Assembly: GCA_004376305.1 (NCBI GenBank)
Contig: SOKD01000256.1
Coordinates: forward strand, 1-14,760
DNA: 14,760 nucleotides
Source of the DNA: Candidatus Cloacimonadota bacterium
GTDB lineage: Bacteria; Hydrothermota; E44-bin80
Reading direction: 5' to 3'
Shown here: in pieces, positions 4,866 to 12,402 of the stretch
Numbering within the stretch: position 1 is the first letter of the stretch
How the letters are laid out: each line of letters opens with the position of its first letter
The notes under the pieces: generated by a model
What the model was told of the DNA's origin: nothing
Seen by the model: the letters and a program-made list of their open reading frames with translations, nothing else
The model's database searches: none
Made by a program: the position numbers and the translations under genes

Positions 4866-4940
4866 GTTACACGTTTTATGATAGTGTTATTTCGCTTCAA
4901 ACCGTGAGAAGTTTGATTGAGAACTGAGCAGGCAAGAACA

Positions 4941-4955
4941 GGAGCCCATGTTATG
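4941..4955 (+). promoter_or_regulatory. Ribosome binding site choosing the lyase start
   Basis: GGAG (4941-4944) lies eight bases before ATG 4953. This favours the start 'MIQILPAEP', whose PAEP aligns with the N-terminus of tyrosine phenol-lyase, over the in-frame TTG at 4917, which has no such site. Confidence 0.6.
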
Positions 4956-7712
4956 ATACAAATATTACCCGCAGAACCGCATAAAACAAAAATTGTTCAA
5001 AAGTTACCTTTGACGACATATCATCAACGCCTTAAATATCTTGATAGTATTCAGTTTAATACTTTCAATCTAAATTCTGACAGGGTGACCTTTGATCTAA
5101 CGAGTAATTGCACATCTGCCATGTCACAGGAACAACTATCCAGCATTTTCCTGGGAGACGAAGCATATGCTGGCAGTAGAAATTTCATACACTTAGAAAG
5201 CGCTATGAGAAGAGTCCTGGGGCATACTCAAATTATCCCAACCCACAACCTTTTAGGCGCCAAAAAGTTGATTGCAAAGGTGCTTGGCAAGAAAAACGGT
5301 ACGGTGCTAACAAACAGTACTCTCATTGACACCATATTTCAAGATAATGGTATGGATTGTGTAAATATAAAGATACCTACCCCCCTGAGTGAAGTTACTC
5401 CTTCAAACTTCAGCGGCTCTATTGATATCAAGAAGCTAAAGAAAGAAATTATTAATGATATGACAAAGAGCATTGCTTTCATTTTGATTGAAACGTGTCC
5501 AGCTTCTTCCCATAGCCAGCCTTTTTCACTGAAGAATCTGAAAGAGACATGCTCTATTGCACGAAAACACAAGATCATTACAATTTTGGATATTTCTTTT
5601 ATCGTGGAGAATGCAGCTTTTATTATCCAGTTTGAACCCTCTCATAGAAAGAAATCGATTGCAGAGTTAGTAAGAGAAATGGTTAATGAGGTGGATATTA
5701 CTGTAATGAACGCTGGTGAAGATTGCAGATCAAATGCTGGTGGTTTCATAACCTCACGTTTAGAAGACATTGCCGACGAATTAAAAAATCAGGTTGTAGT
5801 GTACGAAGGCTTGCACACCTATGGTGGAATGACCGGTCGTACTATGGAAATTGTGGCAAAAGGGCTGGAAGATATGGTTAGCGATAGATCTATCTGTTGG
5901 AGAATCACTCAAATCGAGTACCTATTCGGAAAGCTCAGAGAAAACCGCGTGCCATGTATCAAAGGAGGAAATGGTATTTTCCTCATTCTATCGGATTTCC
6001 TTCCTCAGCTTGGACATACCGAATTTCCATTATTTGTGCTTTCATCAGCACTGTACCTGACAGGAGCAGTAAGAACCGTCGTTGATGATATGTACGAATA
6101 TCTTCTTAATTCAGAAAAATCCAAAACCCTTGGTTGTGAGATACCACGGGATTCCTTCACCAATCAGCATTTAGATCATATTGCCAATGCAATCATCAAA
6201 CTCTATGAAAATCGAAGGAGTATCCAAACCTTGCAACTACATGCGAAGGGCAAATGGACTGATGAGTTCACGTTTGAACTTAAGGACAAGAACATGCCCC
6301 TTTTCCCGATAATCAATGAACTCGACGAGCACAATTATGAACCATGGAAGATTACAACCATTGAACATATTGGTTTTACTGAAAGGGAATACCGACAAAA
6401 AGCTGCTGAAGAGGCAGGATATAACACATTCTTGCTAAAATCTGAAGTTATAGGGATTGATGCATTAACGGATAGCGGAACATCGGCAATGTCATTCGAA
6501 CAGTGGTCTTTAATGCTTAAGGCTCATGAAACAACATATTCCAGTAAGGATTATGAAGAATTCGTGGAGACAGTAAAAGAAATTTTTGGCTACAAATTTG
6601 TGATTCCTACCCACCAGGGACGAGCTGCTGAATACATCTGTTCTCAATCTTTAATAAAGGATGCAGATAGAATCCCAGGGAATATGTACTTTACCACCAC
6701 AAAATTGCACCAGGAATTAGCAGGAGGGCAGTTTATCGATGTAATTGTTGACGAAGCACATGACCCTGAGAGTTCTTTCGAGTGGAAAGGAAATGTTGAT
6801 TTAAATAAGATGGAGGATTTGGTCAAGAAAGTTGGAGCTCATCACGTTCCCTATATAAGTTTTGAAACCTGTGTTAACATGGCAGGTGGGCAACCAGCAT
6901 CTATGGATAATATGAGGCAAGTTCATGACTTTTGTAAAAGACATACTATTTTAGTGCTCTTTGATGCAACCAGATGCGCTGAGAATGCTTATTTCATTAA
7001 GAAAAAGGATCCCCGATATAAGAACAAAACAATAAAGGAAATCCTCAAACAGATGATGTCATATGGAGATGGATGTACCGTCAGTAGCAAAAAAGACTGT
7101 TTGGTAAATATGTGCGGTTTTTTCGCCATTAATGATCTTCGTATTTTCAATAAAGCGCAAGATCTGTTGAGAATATACGAGGGCAGCCGCACTACAGGCG
7201 GCCTATCCTGTCAAGATTTATCAGCGCACACGCAAGGTGCCAAAGAGATGTTGGACTATCACTATATTCGTTCAAGAGTTGAACAGACACAATACTTAGG
7301 AAACAGGTTAATAGAAGAAGGAATACCCATTGTTCGTCCGCCAGGAGGTCATGCTGTCTTTCTAAATGCCAGAATGTTTCTTGACCATCTTGATCAAGAT
7401 GAATATCCTGCTCAGGTGCTTGCAATTGAAACTTTTATTGAAGCCGGCATTAGAACAATGGAGCGAGGGAATGTGTCCAAGGGTAGAAATCCTATTACCG
7501 GAAAAAATTACCGTCCTGCGCTTGAGCTCGTAAGAATTACTTTACCCAGAAGGGTCTACACAAACTCCCATATGGAAGTCATTGTACAGGCGGTCAAAAA
7601 AGTATACCAGAGACGCCAGTCTATAAAAGGTTTGAAATTTGTGTATGAACCTGAAGAACTGAGATTTTTCCAGGGTCGCTTTGAATATCTTAAACGAGGG
7701 GGTGCGAAATGA
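4953..7712 (+). CDS. Tandem fusion of two tyrosine phenol-lyase/tryptophanase-family domains (N-half degenerate, C-half PLP-competent)
   Basis: A protein of 919 residues, twice the ~456-470 of the family. Each half is a full-length fold-type I beta-eliminating lyase, ~1-455 and ~460-919, both with the 'NTF-L-S...D-LT---TSAMS-EQ' start. C-half: PLP lysine K714 in 'SSKKDCLVN', N642 in 'ETCVNMAGGQP', D671 and R674 in 'FDATRCAEN', 'THQGR', 'NMYFTTT', carboxylate Arg R861 in 'ELVRITLPRR'. R838 in 'MERG' matches the phenol-binding Arg of tyrosine phenol-lyase (R381) rather than tryptophanase. N-half: the lysine position is E256 ('NAGEDC'), the Asn is A184, the PLP Arg is F216 and the carboxylate Arg is Gly, although D213 remains. 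It keeps 'GDEAYAGSRNF' (Y72), while the C-half has an altered loop 'HETTYSSKDY'. Predicted reaction: tyrosine-like substrate to phenol, pyruvate and ammonia. The stop overlaps the next start (ATGA). Confidence 0.88.
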   Translation: MIQILPAEPHKTKIVQKLPLTTYHQRLKYLDSIQFNTFNLNSDRVTFDLTSNCTSAMSQEQLSSIFLGDEAYAGSRNFIHLESAMRRVLGHTQIIPTHNLLGAKKLIAKVLGKKNGTVLTNSTLIDTIFQDNGMDCVNIKIPTPLSEVTPSNFSGSIDIKKLKKEIINDMTKSIAFILIETCPASSHSQPFSLKNLKETCSIARKHKIITILDISFIVENAAFIIQFEPSHRKKSIAELVREMVNEVDITVMNAGEDCRSNAGGFITSRLEDIADELKNQVVVYEGLHTYGGMTGRTMEIVAKGLEDMVSDRSICWRITQIEYLFGKLRENRVPCIKGGNGIFLILSDFLPQLGHTEFPLFVLSSALYLTGAVRTVVDDMYEYLLNSEKSKTLGCEIPRDSFTNQHLDHIANAIIKLYENRRSIQTLQLHAKGKWTDEFTFELKDKNMPLFPIINELDEHNYEPWKITTIEHIGFTEREYRQKAAEEAGYNTFLLKSEVIGIDALTDSGTSAMSFEQWSLMLKAHETTYSSKDYEEFVETVKEIFGYKFVIPTHQGRAAEYICSQSLIKDADRIPGNMYFTTTKLHQELAGGQFIDVIVDEAHDPESSFEWKGNVDLNKMEDLVKKVGAHHVPYISFETCVNMAGGQPASMDNMRQVHDFCKRHTILVLFDATRCAENAYFIKKKDPRYKNKTIKEILKQMMSYGDGCTVSSKKDCLVNMCGFFAINDLRIFNKAQDLLRIYEGSRTTGGLSCQDLSAHTQGAKEMLDYHYIRSRVEQTQYLGNRLIEEGIPIVRPPGGHAVFLNARMFLDHLDQDEYPAQVLAIETFIEAGIRTMERGNVSKGRNPITGKNYRPALELVRITLPRRVYTNSHMEVIVQAVKKVYQRRQSIKGLKFVYEPEELRFFQGRFEYLKRGGAK
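7696..7712 (+). promoter_or_regulatory. Shine-Dalgarno and ATGA stop-start overlap
   Basis: GAGGGGG (7696-7702) precedes ATG 7709 by six bases. The ATG shares bases with the lyase stop TGA (7710-7712). This arrangement usually gives translational coupling, so the lyase and the dehydrogenase are probably made together in fixed proportion. Confidence 0.75.
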
Positions 7713-8695
7713 CTAAATTGCTATCAAAGGATGATGTTAAGAGGACCCTTAACATGAAGGATACGATTGAAATTCTTGAAAAGGCATTTCAAAATCTTGC
7801 AACAGCGCAAGCAGTAATGCCGCAACGAACTCCGATCATAACCCCAGATCACAACGGACTTGCCTTATTCATGCCCGCATACTTGAAAGGTATGGGTGCA
7901 ATTGGTGCCAAGGTTGTAACAGTATACAAGAACAATCCTTCCAAGTATAACATGCCCACCGTACTCGGCACGATCATACTCCTTGACGAGAAAACAGGCG
8001 CTCCGATTGCAGTTATGGATGGTGGATATTTAACTGCAATGCGCACAGGTGGTGTCGCAGGGCTTGCCACGAAATTCCTAGCCACCAAGAGCGCAAAAGT
8101 CCACACCATGTTTGGTACCGGAGGTATGGCTAAAACACATGCCTGGGCAGTCGATTGTGTGCGTGATATAGAGAAACTAATGCTCTATTCAATCGATCCT
8201 GTCGAAAAACGTGAAACATTCCGTGATTCCTTAAAAGAAATAATTAATTGCAAGATTGTATTAGTTGACGATCCTGCAACCGCTGTCGCTGAGGCTGATA
8301 TTGTAACGTTGATAACAAGTGCAAAAGAACCAATTGTGGAGGGAGACTGGTTCAAACCAGGAAGCCATATCAATGCAATTGGAGCTCACGCACCTGCAAT
8401 GAGAGAACTTGATTCGAAGACAGTTAAACGCGCCACGGTAATCTGTGACCTTGTTGATGCCTGCAGGGCAGAAGCGGGTGATTTCATTATCCCCGTTGGT
8501 GAATGTAATTGGAGCTGGGATGAAGTTCGCGGCTCACTGGGAGATGTTATTTCCGGCAAAATACAAGGTCGTGAAAATGACAACGAGATCACCCTCTTCA
8601 AGAGTGTCGGTCTTGCAATCCAGGATATTTCAACAGCATTCCATGTCTACAGCAAAGCAATTGAAATGGATGTAGGAACAAATTTCACTTTCTAA
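7709..8695 (+). CDS. Ornithine cyclodeaminase/mu-crystallin family dehydrogenase (alanine dehydrogenase or ketimine reductase type)
   Basis: A protein of 328 residues, a normal length. Family features are the substrate-domain 'GAKVV' (K68), 'TAMRTGGVAGLATKFLA' (R112), a Rossmann glycine-rich loop 'FGTGGMAKTH' (135-144), 'ADIVTLITSA' at 196-205 and 'GDWFKPGSHINAIGAH' at 212-227. True ornithine cyclodeaminases carry a catalytic Asp in the motif 'GGDCPGK-EL'. Here the motif is 'GAHAPAMREL', with H227 at that place, which argues against cyclodeamination. It points towards NAD(P)-dependent alanine dehydrogenase, imine reductase or related members. It overlaps the lyase stop by four bases. A plausible role is to use the pyruvate and ammonia released by the lyase (reductive amination to alanine, recycling NADH) or to reduce an imine by-product. 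The family is certain. The substrate is not. Confidence 0.88.
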   Translation: MTKLLSKDDVKRTLNMKDTIEILEKAFQNLATAQAVMPQRTPIITPDHNGLALFMPAYLKGMGAIGAKVVTVYKNNPSKYNMPTVLGTIILLDEKTGAPIAVMDGGYLTAMRTGGVAGLATKFLATKSAKVHTMFGTGGMAKTHAWAVDCVRDIEKLMLYSIDPVEKRETFRDSLKEIINCKIVLVDDPATAVAEADIVTLITSAKEPIVEGDWFKPGSHINAIGAHAPAMRELDSKTVKRATVICDLVDACRAEAGDFIIPVGECNWSWDEVRGSLGDVISGKIQGRENDNEITLFKSVGLAIQDISTAFHVYSKAIEMDVGTNFTF

Positions 8696-8836: not shown

Positions 8837-10258
8837 ATGATTAAGGGAAAAATGTTCATAAATGGAAATTGGGAAAAGGGTTCTCTGTATAATGATGTCA
8901 CCAATCCATTTTCTGGCGAAATTATTGGAAAAGTACCAAAAGCAGACGAGAGCGATATTGAACGCTCAATATCTTCAGCGCTGAACTCGTCCCGAATATC
9001 AAAGGCGCTGCCCGCTTATGAACGTGCAAGAATACTCCAGAAAGTAAGCAGAAAGATTGAGGAACGGCAAGAGGAACTGGCAAAACTTATTGCTCTTGAA
9101 TCAGGAAAACCCATTCGTTATGCGCTTGGTGAAATAAAAAGGGCAGCGGAAACCTTCAGATTTGCTTCAATAGAAGCACAACAGAACTACGGTGAAGTTA
9201 TCCCGATGGATGCCGCATCACGGGGAAAAGAATATTTTGCATTCTCTATCCGGGTTCCCAGGGGGGTAATACTCGCTATTACCCCCTTTAATTTTCCACT
9301 CAATCTTGTGGCACATAAGGTTGCTCCTGCTCTCGCATCAGGGAACAGTATAATACTGAAACCAGCATCCGCCACCCCGCTCATAGCGTTCAGACTCGGA
9401 GAGATACTTGAAGATGCTGGACTCCCCGAAGGTATCATTAATATCATTTACGGATCGGGGAGTGATGTTGGTTTGAAGCTTGTCCGTGACGAGCGTATTC
9501 AAATGGTTACGTTCACCGGAAGTCTTCCGGTAGGCCAAATCATAAAAAGGGAGGCCGGATTCAAAACGGTAACGCTTGAACTCGGGAACAATAGCGCCGT
9601 CGTTGTGGAGGATGTGCAGGACCTCTCTGCGGTTGTCAACAGGCTCATCATAGGTGCTTTTGCATATTCAGGCCAGGTGTGTATATCTATTCAGAGAATT
9701 TATGTGAACAGGAAACTTTTTGACGATTTTCTTTTACTTTTTATCAAAAAAACAAAAGAACAAAAAATTGGTGATCCGCTTGATCCGGATACGGATATTG
9801 GCCCAATGATTGCTCCCTCTGAGATCAGTAGAATAAGAGAATGGCTTAAAGAAGCAAAAGCAATGGGAGCAAGGATTATCACAGGAGACAAAAGCGAAGG
9901 AAATGTAATGTTTCCAACTGTTTTAACAAATGTCTCAAACGAAATGAGGGTTATGAAAGACGAAGTTTTTGCGCCCGTGGTATCCATCATCCCCTACGAT
10001 AATTTTGATGATGCCCTGCAACTCGTAAATGACACACAATACGGTCTTCAGGCAGGTGTCTATACAAAGGACATCGATAAAATCACAAGCGCAATAGATA
10101 CCATTGATGTTGGTGGATTGATAATCAATGATTTTCCTACGTTCAGAGTTGATCATATGCCTTATGGAGGAGTGAAAAAGAGCGGTATCGGAAGGGAAGG
10201 CTTGAAATATGCAATTGCAGAGATGACAGATATAAAACTCATAGTTATAAGAAAATGA
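8837..10258 (+). CDS. NAD(P)-dependent aldehyde dehydrogenase
   Basis: A protein of 473 residues, typical for the ALDH superfamily, which oxidises aldehydes to acids. Visible elements are N152 in 'ITPFNFPLN', K175 in 'ILKPASATP', the cofactor loop 'FTGSLPVG' (226-233), the general base E248 in 'LELGNN', the catalytic C282 in 'SGQVCISIQRI' and the C-terminal 'DEVFAPVV' and 'PYGGVKKSGIGREG' blocks. The 'TPFNFPLNLVAHKVAPALASGN' region is like lactaldehyde/glyceraldehyde and phosphonoacetaldehyde dehydrogenases (a family-level guess). It has its own promoter and lies 44 bp ahead of the aminotransferase, which suggests a shared transcript. An alternative start at 8852 ('MFINGNW') has a weak AAGGGA before it. 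The substrate cannot be told from sequence. An aldehyde derived from an amino acid would fit the neighbours. Confidence 0.92.
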   Translation: MIKGKMFINGNWEKGSLYNDVTNPFSGEIIGKVPKADESDIERSISSALNSSRISKALPAYERARILQKVSRKIEERQEELAKLIALESGKPIRYALGEIKRAAETFRFASIEAQQNYGEVIPMDAASRGKEYFAFSIRVPRGVILAITPFNFPLNLVAHKVAPALASGNSIILKPASATPLIAFRLGEILEDAGLPEGIINIIYGSGSDVGLKLVRDERIQMVTFTGSLPVGQIIKREAGFKTVTLELGNNSAVVVEDVQDLSAVVNRLIIGAFAYSGQVCISIQRIYVNRKLFDDFLLLFIKKTKEQKIGDPLDPDTDIGPMIAPSEISRIREWLKEAKAMGARIITGDKSEGNVMFPTVLTNVSNEMRVMKDEVFAPVVSIIPYDNFDDALQLVNDTQYGLQAGVYTKDIDKITSAIDTIDVGGLIINDFPTFRVDHMPYGGVKKSGIGREGLKYAIAEMTDIKLIVIRK

Positions 10259-10291
10259 AATTGAAAGACGAGAAGCGGGAAACATGGAAAT

Positions 10292-10305
10292 AAGGAGGTG
10301 GCATG
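10292..10305 (+). promoter_or_regulatory. Strong Shine-Dalgarno of the hisC-type gene
   Basis: AAGGAGGT (10292-10299) is followed by three bases and ATG 10303. It is among the best ribosome sites in the window and fixes this start. It contrasts with the promoter-proximal genes that lack any such site. Confidence 0.8.
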
Positions 10306-11400
10306 CCTGTAGAGCCAAGAAAAGCGCTGGATGAGGTTAGACCGTATATTCCCGGAAAACCCATAGAAGAATTGCGGAGAGAACTTGGCATCGAAGATGA
10401 AATTGTGAAACTTGCTTCAAATGAAAGTGCCGCAGGAACCTCTCCAAAAGCTATCGAAGCAATGAAAAAGAGCATTGAGGAGATGTATCTCTATCCTGAT
10501 GACGTATGCTATTACCTAAAAAGAGGTTTGGCGAAACATCTTGGCGTCGCAGAAGAAAATATCTTCACCGGTAATGGCTCAGTTGAACTCATCCTCTATG
10601 CACCATTGGCTTATCTCTCTTCCGGGGATGAATTTCTAACAAGCGAGCAGGCATTTTTAATCGGGAAGATCTCCGCAAAGGTGATGGGAGCAGTCTTTAC
10701 CGCTGTCCCGGAGAAGGACTATAAACATGATTTAAACGCGATGAGAGATGCACTTAACGAGAAGACAAAAATTATCTACCTCGATAATCCAAGCAACCCC
10801 CTTGGCACAAAACACTCACGGAAGGAAATCGAAGATTTTGTTTACTCTATCCCTGATGGAATCCTGATTATGCTCGATGAAGCATACTATGAATTTGTGA
10901 GGGATAGCGACTTTCCCGATTCTATACAATTTGTAAAGGAGAACAAAAATGTTCTTATCCTAAGAACCTTCTCAAAAATATATGGTCTTGCGGGCATGAG
11001 AATTGGCTATGGAATTGCACCGCCTGAAATCATCAGCACAATCAGGAAAACAAGGATTCCTTTTAACGTCAGCAGGCTTGGACAGATAGCTGAGCTTGCC
11101 GCTCTCGAAGATGAAGACCATGTATCAAGAACAGTCCAACTCATTGATGAAGGGAAAAAATACCTGTCCGGAGAATTCGAAAAAATGGGAGTATTTTATA
11201 TTCCTTCGTGCACAAATTTCATCACGCTAAAACCTGGTATTGATGTAAAAAAACTCTTTGCCAAATTACAGAAAAGGGGTATCATCATCAGGCCACTTGC
11301 AGGATACGGAATGCCTGATTTTATCAGGGTGACCATCGGAACCATGAAGCAAAACAAACGTTTCATTAAAGCATTGAAGGAAATCCTTGAAAAACCATGA
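10303..11400 (+). CDS. HisC-type PLP aminotransferase (histidinol-phosphate or aromatic amino acid aminotransferase)
   Basis: A protein of 365 residues of fold-type I, class I/II. Features are 'VRPYIPGKP', 'KLASNES' (36-42), 'YPDD' (64-67), the 'GNGSVELI' phosphate loop, 'NPSNPLG' (162-168), D192 in 'LDEAYYEF' binding the pyridine nitrogen, PLP lysine K225 in 'RTFSKIYGLAGMRIGYG', and a C-terminal Arg in 'FIRVTIGT'. The family consensus ASNENP-G is here ASNESAAGT, and NPNNPTG is NPSNPLG. No other histidine-biosynthesis gene is near. Its neighbours are an aldehyde dehydrogenase and a phosphate acyltransferase. HisC-clade enzymes also transaminate phenylalanine and tyrosine, so a role in amino-acid fermentation is as likely as histidine synthesis. 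The gene symbol is withheld for that reason. Confidence 0.85.
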   Translation: MPVEPRKALDEVRPYIPGKPIEELRRELGIEDEIVKLASNESAAGTSPKAIEAMKKSIEEMYLYPDDVCYYLKRGLAKHLGVAEENIFTGNGSVELILYAPLAYLSSGDEFLTSEQAFLIGKISAKVMGAVFTAVPEKDYKHDLNAMRDALNEKTKIIYLDNPSNPLGTKHSRKEIEDFVYSIPDGILIMLDEAYYEFVRDSDFPDSIQFVKENKNVLILRTFSKIYGLAGMRIGYGIAPPEIISTIRKTRIPFNVSRLGQIAELAALEDEDHVSRTVQLIDEGKKYLSGEFEKMGVFYIPSCTNFITLKPGIDVKKLFAKLQKRGIIIRPLAGYGMPDFIRVTIGTMKQNKRFIKALKEILEKP

Positions 11401-11505
11401 TAATTCTATGCGAATAGAAAAGATAACGTTGCGCGAAACATGTTTCTCTACTCCACTTTTGACTTCAAAGTTGCAGTGTTTGCTCTGCGACTTCTTTTTA
11501 GCACA

Positions 11506-12402
11506 ATGATAAGAACGTTCGAAGAACTGAAGAAAAAAGCAAAGAAAAAGGGCAGAAGAGAACTTGTCATCGCCTGTGCAGAGGATAAAACTGCACTTGA
11601 AGCATCTCTCCATGCTGCTCATGAAGAGCTTGTATCTCCGATCTTTGTGGGAAACAAGGAAAAAATCCTTGCAATTGCAAAAGCGCATGCCCTTGATGTT
11701 GATCAGAACTCAATAGAAAATGTGGATAACCGAACAGATGCTGTTAGTGTATCTATAGAAATCGTCCGTTCGCATAAGGGAAGTTTCCTCCTTAAGGGCA
11801 TGGTAAAAACATCGGCATTTCTCAAAGGAGTTCTTAATCCACAAACCGGACTCTGTACGGGACGGAGGCTCAGCCATTCAGCTATGCTCCAGGTTCCAGG
11901 TTATCATAAGCTCATTCAGTTAACCGATGGGGGTATGAACATCCGCCCGGATATCCAAACAAAAATAGACATTATTAAGAACGCACAGAGCTTCGCATTG
12001 TCTCTGGGTATCGAGCAGCCAAAGATTGCCTTGCTTTCTGCAATTGAAGTAGTAAATCCTGATATGCCTGAAACGGTCGACGCAGCCATCATCAAACAGA
12101 TGGCAGAAAGAGGACAATTAGGAGAAATTCTCATCGACGGACCACTTGCCCTTGATCTTGCCGTGTCAAAGGAAGCCTGTGCAATTAAAGGCGTACAGAG
12201 TGATATTGCCGGGGATGCTGATATTCTCATCGTTCCTGACATTGCAGCAGGAAACATTGCCGCAAAGGCGCTCATTTATCTCGGTAATGCCCTGGCGGCT
12301 GGAATAATTCTCGGTGCGCAATCACCCGTTGTAATGCTTTCCCGGGCTGACGATACCGAAACAAAACTTAATTCCATTGCACTCGGTGTTCTCAGTTGCT
12401 AA
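11506..12402 (+). CDS. ptb: Phosphate butyryltransferase (PTA/PTB family)
   Basis: A protein of 298 residues from ATG 11506, matching the ~300-residue Ptb rather than the ~330-residue Pta. It converts an acyl-CoA plus phosphate to acyl-phosphate, from which an acyl kinase makes ATP. Family signatures are 'MIRTFEELKKKAK' at the N-terminus, 'FVGN', 'GRRLSHSAMLQVPGYHKLIQLTDGGMNI' spread over ~124-151, 'ALLSAIEVVNPDMPETVDA', 'IDGPLALDLAVS' and 'ADILIVPDIAAGNI...YLGNALAAG'. The frame is open back to ATG 11440, but the extra 22 residues are not family-like and neither start has a Shine-Dalgarno sequence. It lies 105 bp after the aminotransferase. No butyrate kinase gene is in the window. The acyl group could be butyryl, a branched chain or an aryl-acyl derivative of an amino acid. 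Confidence 0.9.
   Translation: MIRTFEELKKKAKKKGRRELVIACAEDKTALEASLHAAHEELVSPIFVGNKEKILAIAKAHALDVDQNSIENVDNRTDAVSVSIEIVRSHKGSFLLKGMVKTSAFLKGVLNPQTGLCTGRRLSHSAMLQVPGYHKLIQLTDGGMNIRPDIQTKIDIIKNAQSFALSLGIEQPKIALLSAIEVVNPDMPETVDAAIIKQMAERGQLGEILIDGPLALDLAVSKEACAIKGVQSDIAGDADILIVPDIAAGNIAAKALIYLGNALAAGIILGAQSPVVMLSRADDTETKLNSIALGVLSC

Follow-up and report, generated by a model that had tools for sequence, protein, structure and literature searches.

The 14,760-nucleotide contig SOKD01000256.1 of a Candidatus Cloacimonadota bacterium, hereafter the window, encodes a 919-residue protein whose single chain joins two halves that each resemble tyrosine phenol-lyase (TPL). Our results support a model in which this fused protein is a covalent TPL catalytic dimer with a single composite active site per chain, a reading to which we give a probability of roughly 0.8. 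The N-terminal half (N-half; residues 1–455, 4953..6317, + strand) has lost the lysine that would form the aldimine with pyridoxal 5'-phosphate (PLP) and retains the loops whose TPL and tryptophanase counterparts act in trans, whereas the C-terminal half (C-half; residues 456–919, 6318..7709, +) keeps the cofactor and substrate residues and has lost the trans-acting tyrosines. The boundary between the halves is our own choice.

Active-site residues of the two halves

The gene is an uninterrupted open reading frame from an ATG at 4953 to a stop at 7712 (4953..7712, +), with an AGGAG at 4940–4944 that ends 8 bases ahead of the ATG. A preceding sequence-only reading had described it as an in-frame double TPL, and this is borne out by profile matches: the Pfam family Beta_elim_lyase hits the protein in two stretches, and each half, taken singly, spans nearly the full length of the NCBIfam TPL/tryptophanase models. 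Scores against the NCBIfam TPL model TIGR02618, which has an equivalog cut-off of 720.7 bits, are 292.2 bits for the N-half alone, 634.6 bits for the C-half alone and 921.7 for the whole chain, the last being the two halves summed. The C-half is about 50% identical to TPL, and residues 462–913 align with solved TPL chains. The halves themselves share about 27% identity (mean over the 121 fused proteins described below).

Residues were compared in an alignment with Citrobacter freundii TPL, whose numbering we use for family positions; the alignment also included E. coli TnaA. In the C-half, the PLP lysine is K714 (TPL K257; 7092..7094, +), a Lys in all 121 C-halves aligned, and the further assignments made earlier (N642, D671, R674, R838 and R861) agree with the alignment. 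Two of the substrate residues, T581 (TPL T124; 6693..6695, +) and R838 (TPL R381; 7464..7466, +), are likewise present in 121/121 C-halves; both correspond to contacts of the substrate hydroxyl in TPL (PMC9262865). The earlier picture of the C-half was therefore right as to the retained cofactor and carboxylate residues, but it overlooked two losses. T528 (6534..6536, +) replaces Tyr71 of TPL and T748 (7194..7196, +) replaces Tyr291, and no C-half among the 121 has a Tyr at either position.

The N-half shows a different pattern. E256 (5718..5720, +) stands in place of the PLP lysine, with A184, F216 and G394 at other cofactor and carboxylate positions, all as previously proposed; in TPL numbering the window has E at the 257 place and N at the 254 place, and D213 (TPL D214) is still present. 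An alternative lysine was considered and rejected, since the alignment places no other N-half lysine of the window in the aldimine column, and the statement that this half has no lysine for an internal aldimine is right for the window. Two loops are kept. The first, GDEAYAG (residues 68–74; 5154..5174, +), contains E70 (TPL E69) and Y72 (TPL Y71), and all its residues except the first A are invariant in 121/121 N-halves. The second, EGLHTYGGMTGRTME (residues 285–299; 5805..5849, +), contains Y290 (TPL Y291), and its EGLH, YGGM and GR are invariant in the same set. In TPL, Glu69, the counterpart of E70, has a role at the cation site. The label of pseudoenzyme given to the N-half thus stands as far as the lysine is concerned, but it is incomplete, given the retention of Glu69, Tyr71, Tyr291 and Arg297 in every one of the 121 N-halves.

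Conservation across fused homologues

The 121 aligned rows consist of the window protein, the same protein as entered in the database (P0002) and 119 other fused proteins. Without exception, their C-halves keep T49, S51, Q98, G99, R100, F123, T124, N185, D214, R217, S254, K256, K257, M379, R381, R404, F448 and F449. The full combination of lysine, Asn, Asp, Arg and carboxylate Arg therefore lies in one domain, the C-half, in 121/121 proteins, and not in the N-half; Tyr71, found in all N-halves and in no C-half, does not share a domain with the C-half lysine. In the N-halves, which also have Leu at position 288 throughout, the cofactor residues are rare: K257 occurs in 1/121 (P0022), N185 in 4/121, R100 in 3/121 and S254 in 1/121, so that the lysine loss is shared by nearly all homologues. 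Seven further, divergent fused loci of the window's phylum (37–41% identity) agree with this distribution as regards the tyrosines and the lysine of the C-half, four of them with a C-half gap at the Y71 place. Single-domain TPL-type proteins of fewer than 505 residues, in turn, retain both sets of residues in 190 of 193 cases among the matches listed in two N-half searches.

A scan of alignment columns, in which no residues were picked beforehand, gave a broader view of this division. We took the 270 columns conserved at 95% or more in 112 single-domain TPLs, 110 of which are close kin drawn by the N-half search, and counted a column as kept at 90% or more and as nearly absent at 10% or less. 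On this basis 68 columns are kept in the C-half only, 13 in the N-half only, 30 in both and 18 in neither, the remainder being mixed. Ten of the 13 N-half-only columns fall within stretches 67–73 and 280–300, which carry Y71 and Y291 (hypergeometric p 4e-9, indicative only, as the stretches were named post hoc and adjacent columns are not independent). As judged from these alignments, decay looks reciprocal between the halves, and we infer that the C-half on its own would fall short of a complete TPL.

Work on related enzymes suggests what the retained loops could do. Tyr74 and Tyr307 of E. coli tryptophanase bind the PLP phosphate held by the adjacent subunit of the catalytic dimer (PMC2770544). 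In the catalytic dimer of Proteus vulgaris tryptophan indole-lyase, the equivalent Tyr-72 is contributed by the opposite chain and donates its proton to the leaving group (PMC11301627). In TPL, Tyr-71 protonates the ring carbon, and the substrate hydroxyl is held by Arg-381 and Thr-124 (PMC9262865). In our alignment, the E. coli residues Tyr74 and Tyr307 fall at TPL Y71 and Y291. The N-half thus retains the parts with which a subunit serves its neighbour and has shed many of those needed for its own site. In the C-half the opposite holds, and a single composite site in each chain is predicted. The C-half would carry PLP on K714 and hold the amino-acid substrate, and the N-half, which should be unable to bind PLP as an aldimine, would pack against it. 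Y72 of the N-half would then act as the acid that gives the departing phenol its proton, Y290, the counterpart of tryptophanase Tyr307, would contact the PLP phosphate, and E70 would also be donated to the C-half site. The protein is predicted to cleave tyrosine, or a close phenolic analogue, by beta-elimination into phenol, pyruvate and ammonia.

Structure prediction gave a confident model of the chain. The second of two AlphaFold2 models has a mean predicted local distance difference test score (pLDDT) of 92.7 and a predicted template modelling score (pTM) of 0.92 over 919 residues, and its C-half superposes on TPL chains at 1.1–1.6 Å over 448–456 residues (1.8 Å for 1tpl). The fold searches of this model covered residues 459–913; support for the fold of the N-half comes from one row of another structure search and from sequence.

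Distribution and descent of the fused proteins

The fused family may be large. A whole-chain search limited to proteins 0.55–1.75 times the length of the query matched 1256 proteins among the 7996 best candidates, and the best 120 of these matches are all fused, with 858–946 residues and 46–99% identity to the window protein (P0002 being the window's own). Deltaproteobacteria, Bacteroidales, Elusimicrobia, Riflebacteria and Eisenbacteria are represented among the fused matches listed, and three Stahlbacteria/WOR-3 contigs hold fused relatives at 73–76% identity. Within the window's phylum, 12 of 147 genomes, including that of the window, yield a match with an E value no worse than 1e-120; one of them (G073) matches as a C-half fragment, and three appear to be the same as the three Stahlbacteria/WOR-3 genomes. 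The gene is the sole match listed within the window's own genome.

In a quick tree of 68 rows (21 fused proteins cut into halves, 23 single-domain proteins and 3 references), the N-halves lie on one side of a branch with a Shimodaira–Hasegawa-like approximate likelihood ratio (SH-aLRT) support of 99, the C-halves likewise with 98, and the C-halves group with TPLs (98). The tree program warned of long branches among the N-halves, above all that of the divergent locus L046, and the origin of the N-half is unsure for this reason. Distances among N-halves correlate with those among C-halves (Mantel rho 0.76, against at most 0.04 in 200 permutations). Taken together, the clades and the correlated distances fit one old fusion with joint descent of the halves, and the history that we propose is a single ancient fusion of the catalytic dimer that would have been followed by complementary decay. 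The N-half evolves faster, with a mean distance 1.58 times that of the C-half. Nonsynonymous divergence (dN) between the window and its relative L032 is 0.208 in the N-half and 0.100 in the C-half; between L032 and L033, dN and synonymous divergence (dS) are 0.020 and 0.12 for the N-half and 0.008 and 0.09 for the C-half. By these values both halves look to be under constraint.

No clear stand-alone N-type subunit, as a two-gene form would have, was seen among the best 120 matches of each of the two N-half searches. Together these listed 202 proteins, 193 of fewer than 505 residues and nine longer. Three of the 193 are N-type: P0137 is labelled partial and its C-terminus resembles the start of a C-half, and for P0242 and P0290 the longest contigs in their clusters have 1873 and 2645 bases. 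Eight of the nine longer proteins have the N-type pattern and end inside the C-half. The ninth, P0123 (788 residues), begins about 145 residues into the N-half, past the Y71 loop; its N-half keeps EGLHTYGG and has Glu at the lysine place. In its C-half, loop 1 reads GDESVAG and position 291 is Ser; the tyrosines are thus gone, and loop 1 is otherwise preserved. From its sequence, P0123 is perhaps an early stage of reciprocal loss.

Substrate and gene neighbourhood

The pocket of the C-half is of the TPL type and not of the tryptophanase type, which makes tyrosine or a similar phenolic amino acid the likely substrate. The residues that contact indole in E. coli tryptophanase, D137 and H463, are T and F in 121/121 C-halves; the corresponding Asp and His in P. 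vulgaris are Asp-133 and His-458 (PMC11301627). For tyrosine itself, we put the case only a little above even, because the C-half alone falls under the TPL equivalog cut-off.

The next gene (7709..8695, +) encodes a protein of the ornithine cyclodeaminase/mu-crystallin (OCD) family, and its ATG overlaps the stop of the fused gene by four bases. By sequence, the structures nearest to this OCD-like protein are a pyrroline-2-carboxylate reductase and, next, alanine dehydrogenases, and it falls under every NCBIfam cut-off listed. One idea is that it may reduce iminopyruvate released by the lyase, or pyruvate plus ammonia, to alanine. Of the 11 phylum loci compared, 4 (the window and L031–L033) have an OCD-like gene after the fused one; such a gene was not found in the stretches compared at the other seven, of which that of L046 is a 4.4-kb contig. 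Farther downstream, at 8837–12402, lie genes for an aldehyde dehydrogenase (ALDH), a HisC-like aminotransferase and a phosphate butyryltransferase (PTB). Relatives of HisC and PTB also adjoin the fused gene in L031–L033, divergently oriented. As a guide to the substrate, gene context is not decisive.

We also compared 18 single-domain relatives from the phylum, leaving aside the partial L019, L024 and L028 and the 557–580-residue proteins L020–L023, L029 and L030. Seven of the 18 (L004, L005, L006, L009, L010, L013 and L014) keep the TPL pocket residues T124, R381 and F448 and carry the changes E69D, R217L, K256R and N262R; in this set, to judge from the alignment, the Arg may replace a monovalent cation. 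In L039, from a genome (G003) of the window genome's family, a single-domain protein of this L004 type lies between ALDH and AccD in the opposite orientation, and the corresponding place in the window is occupied by the fused gene and the OCD-like gene; one TPL type may possibly have been replaced by the other. L020, L021, L022 and L023, from four genomes of one family, are tryptophanase-like proteins of 557–580 residues, comparable in length to the tryptophanase chain 8sl7 (569 residues).

Discussion

Several observations weigh against a composite site. The cofactor site of the N-half partly persists, with D214 in 95/121 and R217 in 47/121 N-halves. There is a Lys at the N-half aldimine column in P0022 and in two of the seven divergent loci (L047 and L048), and R100 is present in the N-half of all seven. 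In 65/121 C-halves, a Tyr lies one residue past the lost Y71 (Y529 in the window); through a local shift, these 65 could regain a tyrosine in cis, an option that the other 56 lack. By itself, the C-half also falls short of the TPL cut-off. The first AlphaFold2 model, made from a shallower alignment, has a pTM of 0.78 and poor active-site loops, and even a high pTM would be no proof of a TPL-like pose. We know of no assay of any such fused protein. According to PMC3870968, Tyr71 and Arg381 differ in importance between substrates of this family and can be dispensed with for some.

Tyrosine loss has also occurred in proteins that are not fused. Seven of the 18 single-domain phylum relatives (L007, L008, L015, L016, L017, L018 and L026) have neither tyrosine and keep the PLP lysine, with F or I for Y71 and H, E or Q for Y291. 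A missing tyrosine pair does not by itself prove that a partner is needed, and it counts for less than the invariant presence of both tyrosines in the N-halves. These seven, however, have unusual residues at the substrate-hydroxyl places and lack R381 and T124 as well, hence a non-TPL pocket, and their sequences suggest a probable departure from TPL chemistry, in contrast to the fused C-halves, which have retained the TPL pocket.

These single-domain proteins are also part of the case for regarding the N-half as a purely structural or regulatory pseudoenzyme attached to a self-sufficient C-half, as are the missing N-half lysine and the faster evolution of that half. We consider this improbable, since the C-halves keep a TPL pocket and yet lack Tyr71 and Tyr291 in 121/121 cases, and the N-halves retain the tyrosine loops just as uniformly. 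Somewhat less doubtful, although still unlikely, is that the N-half pocket has acquired a chemistry or ligand of its own, which would be compatible with a composite site. Some replacements are nearly uniform (N for Q98 in 120/121, S for T216 in 121/121, D for S254 in 107/121 and Q for K257 in 97/121), but other positions vary, the R217 place being R, N, F, H, Y, Q or D, and the window departs from the common residues at both 257 and 254. That two genes were united by an artefact of assembly or gene calling is a negligible prospect: the window is the entire contig 40 of a fragmented metagenome-assembled genome (1.75 Mb, 400 contigs, 77.6% completeness), but all 120 listed homologues are fused and the three Stahlbacteria/WOR-3 contigs share the downstream gene family, so an assembly join is ruled out.

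The closest competitor keeps the architecture of one composite site and changes the substrate, to another beta-substituted amino acid or to a reaction run in the synthetic direction; we rate this somewhat below even. In its favour, the whole chain passes the TPL cut-off only by summing its halves, the immediate neighbour is an OCD-family reductase, and the ALDH, HisC-like and PTB genes are undiagnostic of phenol metabolism. The retention of T124, R381, M379 and F448 in 121/121 C-halves speaks against it, as do the T and F at the indole-contacting positions.

Four known enzymes come closest to the fused protein, and two of them, glycine decarboxylase and serine palmitoyltransferase, are precedents for the composite-site model. 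TPL (EC 4.1.99.2; C. freundii, Erwinia herbicola) resembles the C-half in fold, PLP residues and substrate-hydroxyl contacts, but it is described as a homotetramer of identical subunits (PMC9262865), whereas the fused chain has two unlike halves. Tryptophanase belongs to the same family and donates tyrosines (Tyr74 and Tyr307) to the neighbouring subunit, but the fused C-half has Thr and Phe where the E. coli enzyme has D137 and H463. Glycine decarboxylase (P-protein, GLDC/GcvP) is a long-chain fold type I PLP enzyme with its lysine in the C-half and a Gln at the lysine place of the N-half (PMC7259800), the residue also found in 97/121 fused TPL N-halves; sequence and the C-half structure search place the fused proteins in the same arrangement, with the lysine confined to the C-half. 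The reaction is different, however, and no glycine-decarboxylase model is among the Pfam or NCBIfam matches of the fused protein (P0001; E 0.001). The P-protein also occurs as two subunits (PMC7259800), whereas no clear two-gene form was seen for the fused TPL family. Serine palmitoyltransferase LCB1/LCB2 pairs a lysine-less subunit that has other predicted catalytic residues with a lysine-bearing one in a proposed single site, but as two separate eukaryotic subunits and for a different reaction (PMC3794620). The principle of a fold type I PLP enzyme pairing a lysine-bearing with a lysine-less partner is thus already known (PMC7259800, PMC3794620). We found no report of a fused architecture of this kind in the TPL/tryptophanase family among the matches listed from the open-licence literature, and the fused relatives are apparently unstudied. 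A more speculative view, and one we think rather doubtful, is that a widespread family so far unrecognised independently repeats the glycine-decarboxylase solution, the emptied N-half pocket, with conserved Asn, Ser, Asp and Gln residues of its own, serving as an allosteric or new ligand site that controls the composite site.

Where database names are given for the fused matches, they are tyrosine phenol-lyase or tryptophanase, and these labels deserve a second look, as one half of the chain lacks the PLP lysine in 120/121 rows. If the composite-site model is true, the family would be a clean natural experiment in which a homodimeric enzyme became an obligate pair of unlike halves, each having shed after fusion what its partner could supply. 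The split would then sort the cis- from the trans-acting residues of TPL and tryptophanase by sequence alone, and the fused protein would offer enzymology an asymmetric TPL scaffold.

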